A stretch of 64,000 nucleotides of DNA from Pseudomonas nitroreducens TX1 (GTDB taxonomy: Bacteria > Pseudomonadota > Gammaproteobacteria > Pseudomonadales > Pseudomonadaceae), in assembly GCF_000313755.1 (NCBI RefSeq), contig NZ_AMZB01000097.1:1-64000 (forward strand), written 5' to 3'. The position numbers and the translations under genes were made by a program. Below are positions 211-8,576 of this stretch, one piece after another (within the stretch, counting starts at the first letter, position 1; the number at the start of each line of letters is the position of its first letter). The notes under the pieces were generated by a model that was not told where the DNA came from, searched no databases, and was given only the letters and a program-made list of their open reading frames with translations.

Positions 211-1161
211 TCACCCCAGTCGCTTCATCGTCAGCGTCACCGCCGCGATCCGCTCGGCCTGCTGGTAGGCCGGGCATTCCAGTTCCTCGCCGAAGACGTC
301 CGGGTCCATCTCCTCGTAGCGCCAACTGACCGGCCGGTTGGCCAGCAGTGCATCGAGACGGCGGCGCAGCGGCGCGTCGCCATTGACCACCGCGGCACCG
401 GTGTAGAGCAGCAACGACCCGCCCGGGGCGAGGCGCTCCAGTGCGGTCTCGACGATGCGCAGCGAGAGGCCGTCGCCCAGGTCGCCGCCGCCGTGGCGGT
501 AGGTGCGTTCGTCCGGGTCGAGCAGGTAGGGCGGATTGGCGACTATCAGGTCGAACTGCCCGTCGATGGCATCCAGCAGGTTGCTCTGGCGGATCTGCAG
601 ATCGTCGATGCCGGCGAGGCAGGCGTTGGCGCGGGTGAAGTCCAGGGCGCGGGGGTTGATGTCCACCGCCGTGACTTCGGCGTCGGGGTAGGCCTGGGCG
701 ATGAGGATGGCCCCGGGGCCGGCGCCGCAGCCGATGTCCACGGCGCGGCGCACCGAGTCGGCCGGCTCGCTATCGAAATGGCGCTGCAGCGCCTGGGCGA
801 AGCGATAGGTATCGGGGCCGAAGAACACCGCGTCGGATTCCAGCGTCGGGTAGGCCGAATGGGCGAAGAGCTGTCCGCCCAGGCTTGACCAGCGCACCGC
901 GCTGCGCCACTGGCTGTCTTCGCGTTGCAGCAGGCCGCCGGTTTCCAGCAGCGCGAGCATGCGTTCGCTGATCACCGCGTCGGGGAACAACCGACTCCAG
1001 CCGAACACGCCTTGCAGGTTCTCGGCGACCTGGTTCTGCGGGCGCGAGTTGACTCGCGCGTGGGTCGCCGGGGTGACGGTGGTGAAGCAATAGTTCTCCG
1101 CGCGCAGTTCTTCTCCAAGGGTGATCAGGGCTTGCAGGCGCGTGTCGAAGAAGGCGGTCAT
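211..1161 (-). CDS. class I SAM-dependent methyltransferase with NPPY motif
   Basis: A 316-aa methyltransferase. The SAM-binding glycine loop (DIGCGAGPG) is near residue 140. It is followed by an acidic strand (AVDINP) and then the NPPY tetrapeptide. NPPY is the signature of enzymes that methylate planar nitrogen atoms, such as the PrmC/HemK family and N6-adenine methylases. The roughly 120-residue N-terminal part is probably substrate-specific. The ATG overlaps the stop of the upstream haem-oxygenase-like gene by four bases (ATGA), so the two are translationally coupled and probably act in one pathway. The substrate is unknown. It could be a protein glutamine, a nucleic acid or a small molecule made by the neighbouring oxygenase. 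The family call is firm; the function is not. Confidence 0.85.
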   Translation of the reverse strand: MTAFFDTRLQALITLGEELRAENYCFTTVTPATHARVNSRPQNQVAENLQGVFGWSRLFPDAVISERMLALLETGGLLQREDSQWRSAVRWSSLGGQLFAHSAYPTLESDAVFFGPDTYRFAQALQRHFDSEPADSVRRAVDIGCGAGPGAILIAQAYPDAEVTAVDINPRALDFTRANACLAGIDDLQIRQSNLLDAIDGQFDLIVANPPYLLDPDERTYRHGGGDLGDGLSLRIVETALERLAPGGSLLLYTGAAVVNGDAPLRRRLDALLANRPVSWRYEEMDPDVFGEELECPAYQQAERIAAVTLTMKRLG

Positions 1162-2531
1162 GGTTCGATTCCCAGTTTGTCGGTGTAGATACGGGTCGCC
1201 AGCAGGCCGGCGGGGGTGAAGTGCGAGTGCGGCGCCATCAGCTGTACCAGGCGATGCATACGGCTGCGCGGTGAAAGGGTGGTGAGTTCGTTGAGCAGGG
1301 CGCGCTCTTCGAGGGCAAAGTCCGAATGCATCGGCGGCTCGCCGGCGATGGCCTTGTCGCTGCCACGCCAGGGGTTGCGCGGCTGCGGTTCGTTCCAGTC
1401 GCCGGCAATCCAGTCGTGCAGCAGTTGCCGCTCGTAGGGGTTGAATACCCCGAACATGGCCGCCCCATCGCCGGAAATCAGGTTCCACAAGCGGCTGTGG
1501 GCCGGGTCCTGGTGACGGTGGATCCAGCCCTGGCGCTCCAGCGCTGCGAGGAATTCGCCCATGCGCCCCGGGCCGGCCAGCCACTGGTTCACGGTGCGCC
1601 CGCCGATGCGGGCGCGGTCGTCGTGCATCTGCTTGGCAAAGGGGCGCTTGCGCTCGAGCATGGCGATCAGCTCGGCGTCCAGGTCGAAGCCATCGAGAAT
1701 CTGCCGGTTGCCCAACCCGGCCTCGTTGAGGCGGTAGCCGGCGTGCACGCGGCGCAGGAATTCCTCCTGATCGGCCACCTGCGGCATGCACGCCTTGAGG
1801 GCCTGCAACGCCTTGCGCCCGTGGCCGCTGGCGGCGTTGTCGATGGTGACGTGGAGGCGGAAGTATTCCGGGTCGATGCCCAGTTCGCGCAGTTCGTAGC
1901 TGGTGATCATCAGGTGCAGCGGCGGCAGCTCGTAGCCCAGGTTGTATCCCAGCACTTCGGGCAGGAAGTCGTCCGCCAGATAACCCAGAGCGAGTTGCAG
2001 CGTACCCTGCAGGTAGTGCGCGTCACTGAGTTGCGGCGGGGCGTCGCAACCCAGGCTGTCGAGCAGGCGCTGGTAGATCACCACATGGTTGCGGGCGGGG
2101 ATGCCGTGGCCCAGTTCTTCGAGGCAGATGTGCACCAGCGGCAGCAGGCGCGGGTCGCTCCAGTGCTCGAGGATCCCATAGAGCCAGGCTCCATCGACCT
2201 GCTTGGTGGGTGCCACTGCCTGCAGGAAATACAGCGCGTGGGCGCGGTTGCGGAAGTGTCGGCGCGGCGCGCCCTCGCGCCTGTCTTCCAGGTAGCTGGC
2301 GTAGGCGGCCGCGCTGCACTCCGCGCGGCTCGCCAGCCAGGCGTCCCAGTCTTGTGGGTCGGCGGGCAGCTCGTCGTCCTGCGATAGCTGTTGCTGCAAC
2401 TGTTCCTGAAGGAATTCCGCCGCCATTTCCAGGTGGTTCTGCGGAGCGCGCAGCAAGGCGTCGTAGAGATCCTGGGTGGAACGGCGTGGGCGGCGGGGGG
2501 AGACGGCCTTGCGGGAAGCGGGCAGTGTCAT
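1158..2531 (-). CDS. iron-containing redox enzyme, haem-oxygenase-like diiron (HDO) fold
   Basis: A 457-aa protein of the iron-containing redox enzyme family. The motif LEELGHG (an E-x3-H pair) and the later HVTIDNAASGH segment place Glu, His and Asp residues as expected for a haem-oxygenase-like diiron or iron oxygenase. Known members of that superfamily cleave fatty acids, oxidise amines or take part in natural-product synthesis. The start at 2531 follows GGAGCCCAGC; longer in-frame starts run into the divergent gene. The N-terminus is basic and Ser/Pro-rich. The gene is coupled to the methyltransferase downstream and is divergent from the carboxylate-amine ligase. Iron content and activity are inferred from motifs only. 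Confidence 0.75.
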   Translation of the reverse strand: MTLPASRKAVSPRRPRRSTQDLYDALLRAPQNHLEMAAEFLQEQLQQQLSQDDELPADPQDWDAWLASRAECSAAAYASYLEDRREGAPRRHFRNRAHALYFLQAVAPTKQVDGAWLYGILEHWSDPRLLPLVHICLEELGHGIPARNHVVIYQRLLDSLGCDAPPQLSDAHYLQGTLQLALGYLADDFLPEVLGYNLGYELPPLHLMITSYELRELGIDPEYFRLHVTIDNAASGHGRKALQALKACMPQVADQEEFLRRVHAGYRLNEAGLGNRQILDGFDLDAELIAMLERKRPFAKQMHDDRARIGGRTVNQWLAGPGRMGEFLAALERQGWIHRHQDPAHSRLWNLISGDGAAMFGVFNPYERQLLHDWIAGDWNEPQPRNPWRGSDKAIAGEPPMHSDFALEERALLNELTTLSPRSRMHRLVQLMAPHSHFTPAGLLATRIYTDKLGIEP

Positions 2532-2643
2532 GCTGGGCTCCTTGAGCGGGAATGCGGCTCTTTCCATTGCGAGTGGATGAGCGGGCAAAGGTTTCAACGA
2601 AATGACCGGTGCACCGCTGTGCTGTGACGCGGCTGAAAAGACT

Positions 2644-2670
2644 GAACGGCGACGGTCGCCTCGCGTCTGA
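2644..2670 (+). promoter_or_regulatory. ECF-type promoter, GAACGG-N16-TCTGA
   Basis: The -35 GAACGG is preceded by ACT and GAAAA. The -10 TCTGA follows after exactly 16 bp and ends 29 bp before the ybdK-like ATG. It is one of nine sites with the same architecture in the window. The -10 matches the AlgU consensus exactly. Confidence 0.6.
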
Positions 2671-2699
2671 GCGCTTAACCGCACAACAGGAAGCACCCC

Positions 2700-3893
2700 A
2701 TGTCGCCACGTACCGGGCTGGCCCGTTTTGGTATCGAAGAGGAGTTCTTCCTGCTCGACCCACGCACACTGGATATCGCCCGCGATGTTCCCCTGGGCCT
2801 GCCCCATGCCTGCCGTGCAATTCTGGGTAGCGAGGTGAGCGAGGAAATCTTCGATTGCCAGCTGGAACTGGTGAGTCCGATCTTCCACGCCTTGCATCCG
2901 TCAGCGCAGCACCTGGCGGACCGTCGCAGCCGCCTGCGCGCCATCGTCAACGGCCACGGCCTGGAGCTGTTGTGCGCGGGGGCCCATCCCTTCAGCCAAC
3001 TGCACCTGCAGGGCCCGCAGGTGCGCCCGCGCTATCGCAACCTGATCGAGGAGGAGGGTGTGGTGGCGCGGCAGAGCCTGCTGAGCGGGCTGCATGTTCA
3101 CGTGGAAGTGCTGGGTGAAGATCGCGTGCGGGTGCTCAACAAGGTGCTGCCGTGGCTGCCGCTGCTGCTGGCGCTCAGTTGCTCCTCGCCCTTCTGGGGC
3201 GGGCGCGACAGCGGACTGTGCAGTTACCGCCAGGCGCTGTCCGGGGAATGGCCGCGCATGGGCATTCCACCGTATTTCGAGGACGAGGCGCGCTGGCAGC
3301 GCTTTCTGCGGCTGCTGCTGGAGCAGGGACTGATGGACGAACCCAGCCATGCCTGGTGGTTCCTGCGGCCCTCGGTACGCTATCCCACCCTGGAATTGCG
3401 CATAACCGACGCCTGTCCGCGGGTGGAGGATGCGCTGTGCATCGCCGGCCTGTTCCGCCTGCTGGTCGCCCAGGCACAGGCGGTGCCGGACCATCCCGAT
3501 CCCCACTGGCAACGGGCGTTGCTGGCGGAAAACTGCTGGCAGGCGCGGCGCCATGGTGTGGCGGCGCGGTTTCTCCTGGGAGAGAGCCGCGTCGGGGAGG
3601 GGCTTCTGGACAAGCGCGCCGCGGCGAATGACGTGGGCAAGGGCGACAGCTGCGTGACGGCGCGGGACTGGCTCAGGCTGGCCCGGCATGCGTGCGAACC
3701 CTTTGCCGGCGCGGAGACCGAGTGGGTCTTCGCCCATGCACAGCGGATCATCCACGAGGGCACCAGCGCCGACCGCCAGCGCGCCGTGCATCGCGCCGCC
3801 CGCGAATCGGGCAGCACGGAGCAGCAGGCGCTGCGGGCGGTGGTCGAACACCTGCTGGCGGAGAACCGGAGTGCGCCCGACTACAGGGACTGA
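2700..3893 (+). CDS. YbdK-type carboxylate-amine ligase (GCS2 family)
   Basis: A 397-aa member of the glutamate-cysteine ligase type 2 family. It opens with the hallmark GIEEEFFLLDP near residues 11-21. It also has HVHVEV near residue 125, part of the metal/ATP site, and a C-terminal WFLRPSVRYPTLELRI segment typical of YbdK proteins. Such enzymes join a carboxylate to an amine through a phosphorylated intermediate. E. coli YbdK has weak gamma-glutamylcysteine activity, and other relatives act in secondary metabolism. The start at ATG 2700 follows ACAGGAAGCACCCC. An ECF-type promoter ends 29 bp upstream. The gene is divergent from the HDO/methyltransferase pair, suggesting a shared pathway. 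The true substrate is unknown. Confidence 0.85.
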   Translation: MSPRTGLARFGIEEEFFLLDPRTLDIARDVPLGLPHACRAILGSEVSEEIFDCQLELVSPIFHALHPSAQHLADRRSRLRAIVNGHGLELLCAGAHPFSQLHLQGPQVRPRYRNLIEEEGVVARQSLLSGLHVHVEVLGEDRVRVLNKVLPWLPLLLALSCSSPFWGGRDSGLCSYRQALSGEWPRMGIPPYFEDEARWQRFLRLLLEQGLMDEPSHAWWFLRPSVRYPTLELRITDACPRVEDALCIAGLFRLLVAQAQAVPDHPDPHWQRALLAENCWQARRHGVAARFLLGESRVGEGLLDKRAAANDVGKGDSCVTARDWLRLARHACEPFAGAETEWVFAHAQRIIHEGTSADRQRAVHRAARESGSTEQQALRAVVEHLLAENRSAPDYRD

Positions 3894-5236: not shown

Positions 5237-5572
5237 ATGAAACCTGAAGTCTGTCAATGCCCGGGCTGCATCTGCGAGCTCGACGGGGACGCGGTGCGCC
5301 GTGGCGATCGCTACTTCTGCGGCGAGGCGTGCGCCGAGGGCCACGGCCAGGACCAGTCCTGCCGCGATCCGGAGTGCCCTTGCGTCGACAAGGCGCGGGA
5401 GCGCAGGTCCCGCCAAGTACCGCCGGGCAAATTAGCGGCAAGCGGAGTACCGGTAAGCAAAGTGCCGGCCGACTCCCCGCAGGCCACGTCAGAGCCTGCC
5501 CCAGAAGAAACCTTCCGCGCCCGCGAACCCCTCTCGCCGGGACGGACCCTCCAGGAGAAACCCCATGACTGA
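5237..5572 (+). CDS. pmtA: metallothionein with extended C-terminal tail
   Basis: A 111-aa protein. Residues 1-50 form a bacterial metallothionein domain with nine cysteines (positions 6, 8, 11, 13, 28, 32, 42, 47, 49) and His36, arranged CxCxxCxC, then CxxxC, then CxxxxCxC. This domain chelates Zn, Cd or Cu in the cytoplasm. Residues 51-111 form a charged, Pro/Ser-rich tail ending with an ETF...PLSP segment that resembles the tail of the Pseudomonas protein PmtA. The start follows AAGGGAGGCTGTCGCC. The stop overlaps the next gene by eight bases. A second, short metallothionein lies 4 kb downstream. The gene symbol is by resemblance only. Confidence 0.85.
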   Translation: MKPEVCQCPGCICELDGDAVRRGDRYFCGEACAEGHGQDQSCRDPECPCVDKARERRSRQVPPGKLAASGVPVSKVPADSPQATSEPAPEETFRAREPLSPGRTLQEKPHD

Positions 5573-5996
5573 ACGACGCGAACAGCACATCGAGATCGAT
5601 GACACCGAGGACCGCATGGGCAGCGTGCGGGAGCTGGATTTCGAGAAGGGCCCGGAGGGGCGCATCGGTGACGAGCGCTCGCCTGAAGACGTGGAACGCG
5701 ACTTTCCCGCCCAGCGCCGCCGCGAAATGGGCCTGAGCGGTGGCGAAACGCTGGGCCGGGGCGAGACCGAGGACGGCGTGAGCATGGACGACTTGTCGCC
5801 CGAAACCCTGATCGACGAGGACGGCACCGAATCCCCGCTGGACCCGGCCGACAGCAAGCCGGCGGACAAGGAACTGTCCATCGTCCGCGAAAGCGAGATC
5901 GGCGGCGGCATCGGCCTGGACGAGGCCGAGGAAGGCCGGGTCCATCCGCTGGACGGCAAACCCTGGGACGAGTCCGACCCTGACGAGGAACAGTGA
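5565..5996 (+). CDS. acidic hypothetical protein, 143 aa
   Basis: A strongly acidic, hydrophilic protein beginning MTERREQHIEIDDTEDRMGS, with many Glu, Asp and Gly residues and no Cys or membrane segment. It is probably largely disordered. Its ATG overlaps the metallothionein stop by eight bases, and it ends only 3 bp before ligD. The three genes therefore form one transcription unit from the promoter at 5182. I do not assign a function; proteins of this type occur in pseudomonad stress clusters. Confidence 0.75.
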   Translation: MTERREQHIEIDDTEDRMGSVRELDFEKGPEGRIGDERSPEDVERDFPAQRRREMGLSGGETLGRGETEDGVSMDDLSPETLIDEDGTESPLDPADSKPADKELSIVRESEIGGGIGLDEAEEGRVHPLDGKPWDESDPDEEQ

Positions 5997-5999
5997 GCC

Positions 6000-8576
6000 A
6001 TGGCCCGAGCCGAGACCCTCCACGAATATGCCCGCAAGCGCGACTTCAGCGGCACCCCCGAGCCCAGTGGTGAATCGGCTTCAGGCCATGCCGGGGAGTT
6101 CGCCTTCGTGGTACAGAAACATGATGCCAGCCACCTGCACTACGACTTCCGCCTCGAACTCGATGGCGTACTGAAAAGCTGGGCGGTGCCCAAGGGGCCT
6201 TGCCTGGACCCCAGCGTGAAGCGCCTGGCCGTCCAGGTGGAAGACCACCCGCTGGACTATGCGCGGTTCGAAGGGCATATCCCCGACGGGCATTACGGCG
6301 CGGGTGACGTCATCGTCTGGGACGAAGGCCGCTGGACGCCTATTGGCGACCCCCACGAGGGCATCCGGAGCGGGCACCTGAAATTCCGCCTGGACGGCAG
6401 CAAGCTCGCCGGCAGCTGGAACCTTGTCCGTACACGCATGGCCGGCCGGCAACCGCAGTGGTTCCTGATCAAGGGCCGCGACGACCAGGCGCGGGATTAC
6501 CCGCGTTTCGACATCCTCGCCGAGGAGCCGCTCAGCGTGGTCACCGGTCAGTCGCTGCCCAGCGAGGCGGCAGCGGTGAAGAAGGCCGCACCCAGGAGCG
6601 GTCGCCCGGAAAGGGCGGCAGTCGCTCCGGCGAAGAAAACGACGAAGCAAGCCGCTTCGGGCAAGCGCGGCAGCGCCAGCTTGCCCGACGCGCTGTCGCC
6701 GGAGCTGGCCACCCTGGTCGAGGCGCCACCGCCCGGCGAATGGCGATACGAGATCAAGATCGACGGCTATCGCATCCTCGCCCGACTCGACCACGGCAAG
6801 GTACGGTTGCAGACCCGCAACGGCCACGATTGGTCCAGCAAGCTGCCCGAGCTGTGCGAGGCGCTGGCCGGGCTCGACGTGCAGTCGGCCTGGCTGGATG
6901 GGGAAATCCTGGTGATGGACGAAGAGGGCCGCCCGGACTTCCAGCGCTTGCAGAACGCCTTCGACGCGCACCTTTCTGAGCCGATCCACTACACCCTGTT
7001 CGACCTGCTCTGGCTGGATGGCGAGGATTACCGAGGCAAGCCGCTGGAGGAGCGCCGCGAAGCGCTGCAACAGGTGCTGCGCGGTAACGCCAGCCAATAC
7101 CTGCGCTATTCCGAAGACTTCACCGACGACCCCCGGAGCATTCTCGACAGCGCCTGTCGCCTGGGGCTGGAAGGCCTGATCGGCAAGCGCGCCGGCAGCA
7201 CCTATACCCAGAAGCGCTCCCGTGACTGGATCAAGCTCAAGTGCAAGCGGCGGCAGGAATTTGTCATCGTCGGCTACAGCGAACCCAAGGGCTCGCGTTC
7301 GCATTTCGGCGCCTTGCTGCTGGGCCTGCACGACAAGGATGGCGAGCTGCGCTACGCCGGCAAGGTGGGCACCGGCTTCAGCAGCACCAGCCTGAAAACC
7401 ATCTACCAACAGCTCAAGCCCTTGCAGCGCAAAGCCTGCCCGTTGCATACGCCGCCTCGGGGCGCCGATGCCAAGGGGGTTACCTGGCTGCGACCGGAGC
7501 TGCTTTGCGAGGTGGCCTTCGCCGAGATCACCCGCGAAGGTCTGGTCCGCCAGGCGGTGTTCCATGGCCTGCGCAGTGACAAGCCCGCCCAGGCCATAGT
7601 CGAAGAGAAACCGCAGAAGGCGGCCAGAGCGCCCGGCAAAACCTCGGGCAAAACCTCGGGCAAAACCTCGGCCGGGGCAGGTGCCTCGACGGGCAACAAG
7701 GTCGAAGGCGTGACCATTACCCACCCCGACCGGGTGATCGACCCCACCAGCAAACTGCGCAAGATCGACGTCGCCCGCTATTACGAGAAGGCCGCCGAAC
7801 GGATGCTGCCCTGGCTTGGCGACCGCCCCGTGTCGCTGGTACGGGCGCCGGATGGCGTGGGCGGCGAGCAGTTCTTCCAGCGGCATGCATCGCGCAACGC
7901 CATTCCCGGCGTCGACCTGCTGGACCCGAAGCTCGATCCGGGGCGCCCGGCACTGTTGCGCATCGCCAGCGCCAAGGGGCTGGTCGGCGCCGCGCAGATG
8001 GGAGCGCTGGAGATGCATACCTGGAACGCCGCAGTCGACGACCTGGAGAAACCCGACCGCTTCGTCCTCGACCTCGACCCGGACCCAAGCCTGCCCTGGT
8101 CCCGGATGATCGAGGCGACCCAGCTGACGCTGACGCTGCTCGACGAACTGGGCCTGCAGTCCTTCCTCAAGACCAGCGGCGGCAAAGGCATGCACATCCT
8201 CGTGCCGTTGCAGCGCAACCATGGCTGGGACGAGGTCAAGGACTTCGCCCACGCCATCAGCCGGCACATGGCCAGGATCATGCCGGACCGATTCAGCGCC
8301 GTGTCCGGGCCGAAGAACCGGGTCAAGCGCATCTTCATCGATTACCTGCGCAATGGCCGCAGCGCCAGCACGGTCTGTGTCTGGTCGGTGCGCGCGCGCG
8401 AAGGGCTGCCGGTATCGGTACCGGTGAGCCGCGAGGAGCTGGCCGAGCTCAAGGGCGCCAATCGCTGGACCATCGCGAACGTCGACGAGCGCCTCGCCGC
8501 AGCCGACCCCTGGGCCGACTGGAGCAAGACCCGCCAGCGCCTGACGCGCAGGATGTGGGATCAGCTCGAGGGCTGA
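6000..8576 (+). CDS. ligD: DNA ligase D (phosphoesterase, ligase, polymerase)
   Basis: The 858-aa multifunctional ligase of bacterial non-homologous end joining. Domain order is phosphoesterase (about 30-185, with the HDASHLHYDFRLE motif), ATP-dependent ligase (about 225-530, nucleophile K253 in EIKIDG), and primase-like polymerase (about 565-855, with DLDPDPS, TSGGKGMH and SGPKNRVKR). The length matches pseudomonad LigD. The two linkers are basic and low-complexity, and the second contains three GKTS units. It works with Ku, encoded 13 kb away. It appears co-transcribed with the metallothionein and acidic protein genes, so end joining may be induced under stress. Confidence 0.97.
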   Translation: MARAETLHEYARKRDFSGTPEPSGESASGHAGEFAFVVQKHDASHLHYDFRLELDGVLKSWAVPKGPCLDPSVKRLAVQVEDHPLDYARFEGHIPDGHYGAGDVIVWDEGRWTPIGDPHEGIRSGHLKFRLDGSKLAGSWNLVRTRMAGRQPQWFLIKGRDDQARDYPRFDILAEEPLSVVTGQSLPSEAAAVKKAAPRSGRPERAAVAPAKKTTKQAASGKRGSASLPDALSPELATLVEAPPPGEWRYEIKIDGYRILARLDHGKVRLQTRNGHDWSSKLPELCEALAGLDVQSAWLDGEILVMDEEGRPDFQRLQNAFDAHLSEPIHYTLFDLLWLDGEDYRGKPLEERREALQQVLRGNASQYLRYSEDFTDDPRSILDSACRLGLEGLIGKRAGSTYTQKRSRDWIKLKCKRRQEFVIVGYSEPKGSRSHFGALLLGLHDKDGELRYAGKVGTGFSSTSLKTIYQQLKPLQRKACPLHTPPRGADAKGVTWLRPELLCEVAFAEITREGLVRQAVFHGLRSDKPAQAIVEEKPQKAARAPGKTSGKTSGKTSAGAGASTGNKVEGVTITHPDRVIDPTSKLRKIDVARYYEKAAERMLPWLGDRPVSLVRAPDGVGGEQFFQRHASRNAIPGVDLLDPKLDPGRPALLRIASAKGLVGAAQMGALEMHTWNAAVDDLEKPDRFVLDLDPDPSLPWSRMIEATQLTLTLLDELGLQSFLKTSGGKGMHILVPLQRNHGWDEVKDFAHAISRHMARIMPDRFSAVSGPKNRVKRIFIDYLRNGRSASTVCVWSVRAREGLPVSVPVSREELAELKGANRWTIANVDERLAAADPWADWSKTRQRLTRRMWDQLEG
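7635..7670 (+). repeat. three perfect 12-bp tandem units inside ligD
   Basis: GGCAAAACCTCG is repeated three times without change, encoding GKTS x3 in the linker between the ligase and polymerase domains. The length is a multiple of three, so copy-number change would keep the frame. Confidence 0.9.

Follow-up and report, generated by a model that had tools for sequence, protein, structure and literature searches.

The window analysed here, a stretch of 64,000 nucleotides from Pseudomonas nitroreducens TX1 (contig NZ_AMZB01000097.1, positions 1 to 64,000 of the forward strand), carries near its start genes for a methyltransferase, an oxygenase and a ligase, and this raises the question of whether the three enzymes serve one pathway and, if so, to what end. 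The oxygenase gene (1158-2531, minus strand, 457 residues) encodes a haem-oxygenase-like diiron oxygenase (HDO; PF14518, 9e-28) which, by sequence, belongs to the family of DtpC from Acinetobacter baumannii. It is coupled to the gene for a class I S-adenosylmethionine (SAM)-dependent methyltransferase with an NPPY motif (211-1161, minus strand, 316 residues; PF05175, 4e-20): an ATGA at 1158-1161 on the minus strand contains both the oxygenase stop codon and the start codon of the methyltransferase, an overlap of the translational coupling type that is also present in close relatives. Divergent from both is the gene for a YbdK-type GCS2 carboxylate-amine ligase (2700-3893, plus strand, 397 residues; PF04107/TIGR02050). 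All three open reading frames are intact, and the source genome holds one copy of each gene. The initial annotation of this DNA, which had described an HDO gene overlapping that of an NPPY enzyme of N-methyltransferase type and a divergent YbdK-type ligase, is confirmed in layout and enzyme classes alike, the oxygenase being of the diiron type with all of its metal ligands. The reading put forward here, to which about an even chance is given, is that the module is a stress-induced N-methylation/N-oxygenation pathway to a protective small molecule, probably derived from arginine, with conjugation by the ligase in some species.

That annotation had staked its proposal on the three genes being found together across Pseudomonas, and this is what was found: the trio is present in the same 10 of 25 same-genus genomes, side by side every time, and all three genes are missing from the same 15. 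Among 198 genomes of the same family, 99 carry the oxygenase, 38 the ligase and 27 both, and by the listed coordinates one ligase copy adjoins the oxygenase in all 27, so that the neighbourhood of the three genes is far beyond chance. A species-level scan (one genome per species) returned 540 oxygenase relatives, the best 80 of which provide the locus counts given here, as lower bounds since contig ends cut some loci. The methyltransferase lies directly behind the oxygenase in 78 of the 80 loci; the ligase is present in 27, divergent in 16 and collinear behind the methyltransferase in 11. The pair without a ligase occurs also in genomes of three further families. The core of the module is the oxygenase-methyltransferase pair, and the ligase is optional, with several gains or losses. 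The idea of the trio as a single unit is upheld in that the genes are conserved together, and has to be narrowed in that only the pair forms the core.

The optional nature of the ligase raises the possibility that it is an independent stress gene and has only the divergent promoter region in common with its neighbours; it might, for instance, encode a gamma-glutamyl ligase that helps to make a glutathione-like thiol. The protein matches PF04107 (E 1.5e-58) and TIGR02050 (E 1.5e-86, 290 bits against a cut-off of 176), aligns with YbdK (1r8g, 9e-49), conserves the motifs FGIEEE, GLHVHV and TLELRI and has invariant residues E13, E15, E56, H132, H134, R223, E232 and R234. The weak gamma-glutamylcysteine ligase activity of YbdK would suit an independent role, as would the absence of the ligase from most oxygenase loci and its presence without the oxygenase in 11 of the 198 family genomes. 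Such independence is nevertheless somewhat improbable for three reasons: first, the ligase joins the pair in two arrangements, divergent and collinear, the latter having a single origin on the ligase tree. Second, one copy adjoins the oxygenase in every family genome that holds both. Third, most ligases of oxygenase-less genomes nest within the oxygenase-linked ligases, and in one genome (G512, locus L127, 8078-10533) a decaying locus has kept the methyltransferase and the divergent ligase next to a 27-residue remnant of the oxygenase, which indicates secondary oxygenase loss. Mapped on the oxygenase tree, the presence of the ligase takes no fewer than 8-10 changes, whereas shuffled labels take approximately 26, so that the ligase is clustered, yet has been repeatedly gained or lost. 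With its TIGR02050 match above the cut-off, the window ligase belongs to a Pseudomonas subfamily of GCS2 enzymes that is linked to the oxygenase. At another locus, L129, decay is further along than at L127 and the methyltransferase has gone too. At the oxygenase-less loci L120-L126, L131 and L132, the ligase, of a derived clade, adjoins a RES-like/Xre-like toxin-antitoxin pair, named by eye. Reading a ligase function from the neighbours in oxygenase-less genomes (the RES/Xre pair and polyamine-type ABC genes) was considered, and these neighbours were judged incidental because the ligases there form one derived clade.

The oxygenase family is no longer wholly uncharacterised: a stress role for it has been on record since June 2026, when DtpC of A. 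baumannii was reported to protect dried cells and to limit peroxide (PMC13232832). In that work dtpC and katE, separated by 54 bp, share a transcript, residues E143, H153 and H232 are needed for function, and an iron chelator raises survival of the dtpC mutant; three options were left for its action, namely iron binding, peroxide destruction and the making of a protectant (PMC13232832). For comparison, the reference DtpC was taken as an open reading frame in a chromosome-sized A. baumannii record of the plasmid collection, 54 bp upstream of a catalase-like open reading frame; with its start at MPVVV, the expected residues fall exactly on E143, H153 and H232 as mutated in PMC13232832. The window oxygenase is 37-40% identical to it over the full length (37% over 425 residues, E 1e-100); the counterparts of the three essential residues are E139, H149 and H227, invariant in 47 homologues. 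Alignment with SznF identifies a complete HDO ligand set of three histidines and three carboxylates (E139, H149, E201, H227, D231 and H237), likewise invariant in the 47 homologues, with a three-residue insertion before H237 relative to SznF. D113 is also invariant and is a candidate fourth carboxylate, since the D113-E139 spacing of 26 equals that of E189-E215 in SznF, but it lies one residue off in the pairwise alignment.

An AlphaFold2 model of the oxygenase (mean predicted local distance difference test score, pLDDT, of 88) is closest among solved structures to RohS (Z 20.4), HrmI (19.2) and SznF (18.3), followed by FlcD (15), CADD (14), BesC (13), UndA (12) and PolF (12). N-oxygenation by the window oxygenase would be consistent with these kinships. 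Although HrmI/BelK and RohS have the nearest folds, their sequence identity to the window oxygenase is 12-17%; HrmI oxidises lysine and its surroundings are unlike those of the window. A Pfam scan found no cupin domain in the window oxygenase, and a weak MarR-like match lies at residues ~300-361. Within the C-terminal part (residues 290-457, window 1158-1660), H303, D305, N315, W317 and H437 are conserved. Two more distant PF14518 proteins (in G160 and G198), which are larger and without a methyltransferase, were set aside. At locus L148 (7215-11164) of a Pseudomonas genome, a different, larger HDO-domain protein of 703 residues directly adjoins a carbamoyltransferase-like protein, named by eye, and so marks a further HDO cluster.

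In the methyltransferase, the NPPY motif occupies residues 209-212 and is invariant among the homologues aligned; the domain is PrmC-like. The structural model (pLDDT 94) matches best in the PDB with AerE (Z 26, 302 of 316 residues aligned), then with GenN (Z 24), and after these with HemK/PrmC enzymes carrying the same NPPY. The enzyme is thus of N-methyltransferase type, and nitrogen methylation itself is predicted from the model. AerE (aeronamide) and GenN (gentamicin) match the full-length fold, N-terminal domain included, at ~20% identity, but differ from each other in substrate, AerE being an asparagine-amide N-methyltransferase that acts on a proteusin peptide and GenN acting on an aminoglycoside; we know of no HDO partner for either. 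The AerE match, together with the resemblance of the catalytic domain to PrmC/HemK, which methylates glutamine in release factors, suggests that the pair may instead modify a peptide or protein, with post-translational N-methylation and oxidation of Asn, Gln or Arg side chains and no free metabolite. Ribosomal peptides are among the known substrates of HDOs (PMC13108848). This alternative is considered quite unlikely: no precursor peptide gene was recognised next to the loci in a search that did not go in depth, the HDOs nearest in fold use free amino acids or small heterocycles, and the ligase and the amino-acid symporter found as partners suit small molecules.

For the preferred reading of a small-molecule pathway, the partners of the methyltransferase in other Proteobacteria provide a pointer to a candidate substrate. 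Homologues of the methyltransferase (38-52% identity) lie on plasmids of Komagataeibacter, Sphingobium, Novosphingobium, Variovorax and Legionella, and in Komagataeibacter, Sphingobium, Variovorax and Legionella the neighbouring HDO is of another subfamily, a relative of HrmI (E 4e-29) with no more than marginal similarity to the window oxygenase, so that an HrmI-like enzyme occupies the same place beside the methyltransferase. In Legionella sainthelensi (NZ_CP025493.2, locus L186, 3561-5390) a dimethylargininase/arginine-dihydrolase-like domain (NF045659, 5e-31) precedes the methyltransferase in one fused protein, whose gene is followed by an HrmI-type HDO (5417-6334), a hypothetical gene and then LigD and Ku; the window shows this DNA-repair stress context too. 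In Sphingobium yanoikuyae (NZ_CP115457.1, locus L170, 1502-9241) the order is cyanophycin synthetase, isoaspartyl peptidase, cyanophycinase, methyltransferase, HDO and dicarboxylate symporter; cyanophycin is a polymer of aspartate and arginine. Other Sphingobium carry the methyltransferase with a homologous symporter. Taken together, the Legionella fusion and the S. yanoikuyae cluster point to arginine, and an arginine-derived substrate is probable. The cyanophycin link of the HrmI-type loci was not repeated in four further Sphingomonadaceae plasmids and the Pseudomonas loci have no arginine or cyanophycin gene closer than 10 kb, so that the substrate stays hypothetical. A class-level search for further contexts of the methyltransferase gave matches in only 4 of 369 genomes and no new partner.

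The recurrence of the methyltransferase beside a second HDO subfamily bears also on the possibility that the oxygenase protects alone, its diiron site binding iron or consuming peroxide or superoxide, with the methyltransferase and the ligase as separate genes that share a stress island. DtpC protects in Acinetobacter, where its gene shares an operon with that of the KatE catalase, and homologues of the methyltransferase and of the ligase were not found in the Acinetobacter records, three chromosome-sized ones included, at the thresholds used; the oxygenase can therefore protect there alone, or with other partners or by another route. Sequestration and scavenging are among the options of its discoverers, and the chelator helps the mutant to survive (PMC13232832). 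The katE operon is a trait of the Acinetobacter gene and does not define the protein family, and the partner in the window is the methyltransferase, to which the oxygenase is coupled while facing the ligase. Protection by the oxygenase alone is unlikely, given the ATGA overlap, the adjacent methyltransferase in nearly all loci and across families, the joint loss within the genus, and the pairing with another HDO subfamily elsewhere, which mere hitch-hiking in an island does not predict. Acinetobacter plasmids, some of them mobilizable (L163, L164 and L165), carry a DtpC-like oxygenase with catalase and otsA/otsB, and further with acyl-CoA dehydrogenase, PIG-L deacetylase, another methyltransferase and glycosyltransferase; this set is a possible mobile desiccation-tolerance cassette. 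PLSDB lists as plasmids the chromosome-sized A. baumannii records (3.7-4.1 Mb) NZ_CP077849.1, NZ_CP064203.1 and NZ_CP104448.1.

A role in stress, which the initial annotation had suspected, is likely because the oxygenase is a homologue of DtpC and because the adjoining island carries metallothionein, LigD, Ku and GlgE/TreS genes. The island (5237-46458) begins with a metallothionein gene (5237-5572, plus strand; PF02069, 3e-9) and the gene for LigD, the ligase/polymerase of non-homologous end joining (6000-8576, plus strand; PF21686, PF13298), and includes genes for DUF4142, SDR, glycogen phosphorylase, Ku, GlgE, TreS-type, GlgB, GlgX-type and starch-synthase-type proteins. In 38 of the 80 loci, a gene of the LigD cluster is found no more than 10 kb from the oxygenase. 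GlgE-derived glucan mediates desiccation tolerance in P. aeruginosa (PMC8084333). The surroundings of DtpC are alike in kind, with catalase and trehalose genes in Acinetobacter; no catalase gene lies beside the window oxygenase, those of the source genome being on other contigs. P. aeruginosa PA2181, considered as a possible homologue, is only listed as a hypothetical gene in a stress region and was dropped.

The intergenic region holds a promoter-like element of the extracytoplasmic function (ECF) AlgU/RpoE type upstream of the ligase (GAACGG-N16-TCTGA, 2644-2670, plus strand), which resembles the AlgU consensus GAACTT-N16/17-TCtgA (PMC10651043). All 14 relatives aligned retain GAAC and GTC without change, N17/18 apart. 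The strict AlgU motif occurs in 2 of 18 regions scanned, against ~8% by chance per region and strand, which is not significant alone. The stress promoter ascribed to the ligase is thus supported in part: the element is AlgU-like and its GAAC/GTC conserved, but a strict AlgU -10 box is confined to those two regions. Towards the oxygenase, the intergenic alignment and the upstream regions of ligase-less loci reveal a second promoter-like conserved block, TTGAAACCTTTGC...CCACTCGCAA (2563-2598, minus strand), which appears in relatives, ligase-less loci included, as GGAAT[CT]TTT.

How the pathway might proceed can be outlined from these enzymes. The SAM-dependent methyltransferase would first methylate an amide, amine or guanidine nitrogen of a substrate derived from an amino acid, most likely arginine or an arginine peptide. 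The DtpC-family oxygenase, with its cofactor site assigned by sequence, would then use O2 to N-oxygenate the substrate, as SznF, HrmI and RohS do, and in species with the ligase this enzyme might spend ATP on an amide bond between the product and a carboxylate, glutamate for instance. On the ligase side, a sigma factor of the AlgU type, which responds to envelope stress, would probably drive expression, with induction by stress, and either the product or the oxygenase may limit peroxide and iron damage in dried or stressed cells, a role demonstrated only for Acinetobacter DtpC. Several observations weigh against this scheme. A fold shared with N-oxygenases is no proof of N-oxygenation. The link to arginine comes from the single Legionella fusion and the single S. 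yanoikuyae cluster, both outside Pseudomonas and with an oxygenase of another subfamily, and the Pseudomonas loci lack arginine and cyanophycin genes nearby. Most oxygenase loci are without a ligase, some genomes have a ligase and no oxygenase, and the other two enzymes appear to be missing from Acinetobacter. The description of the trio as a typical tailoring set for small molecules is plausible, but the Acinetobacter oxygenase works without the other two. A broader version is proposed more tentatively and is on balance doubtful, namely a shared modular stress pathway in which the N-methyltransferase works with either of two distantly related HDO N-oxygenases and arginine, free or released from cyanophycin, would become an N-methylated, N-oxygenated metabolite, conjugated by the YbdK-type ligase in some species, that guards dried cells from iron and peroxide damage, DtpC being a reduced Acinetobacter version.

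Among characterised systems, a close parallel is the streptozotocin pathway, where SznE, an arginine methyltransferase, and the HDO N-oxygenase SznF act in turn on a guanidine. The window methyltransferase is of the AerE/GenN/HemK type, unlike SznE, and whereas the HDO ligands of SznF align with those of the window oxygenase, SznF has a cupin domain and forms an N-nitroso product (PMC13108848), with the weakly MarR-like C-terminal domain in place of a cupin in the window. The mangotoxin pathway likewise combines an HDO, MboA, with ATP-dependent amino-acid ligases, but these are ATP-grasp rather than GCS2 enzymes and MboA, which makes an alkyne, is of another HDO subfamily (PMC13185094). No characterised pathway with this trio was found in the literature searched, in agreement with the initial annotation, nor was there a report there of a module with the methyltransferase and ligase, of its spread or of the link to an arginine-type enzyme.

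The survival of bacteria as they dry on a surface is an unsolved practical problem, to which DtpC ties an HDO for the first time. Of the options left for DtpC, it is the making of a protectant that is favoured by the conserved methyltransferase and the optional ligase, as well as by the cyanophycin cluster and the fusion in Legionella; these also name candidate substrates, which renders the question testable with purified enzymes and harmless strains of Pseudomonas. If the proposed pathway is true, it would give a new biological role to HDO chemistry, so far known mostly from antibiotics and toxins.

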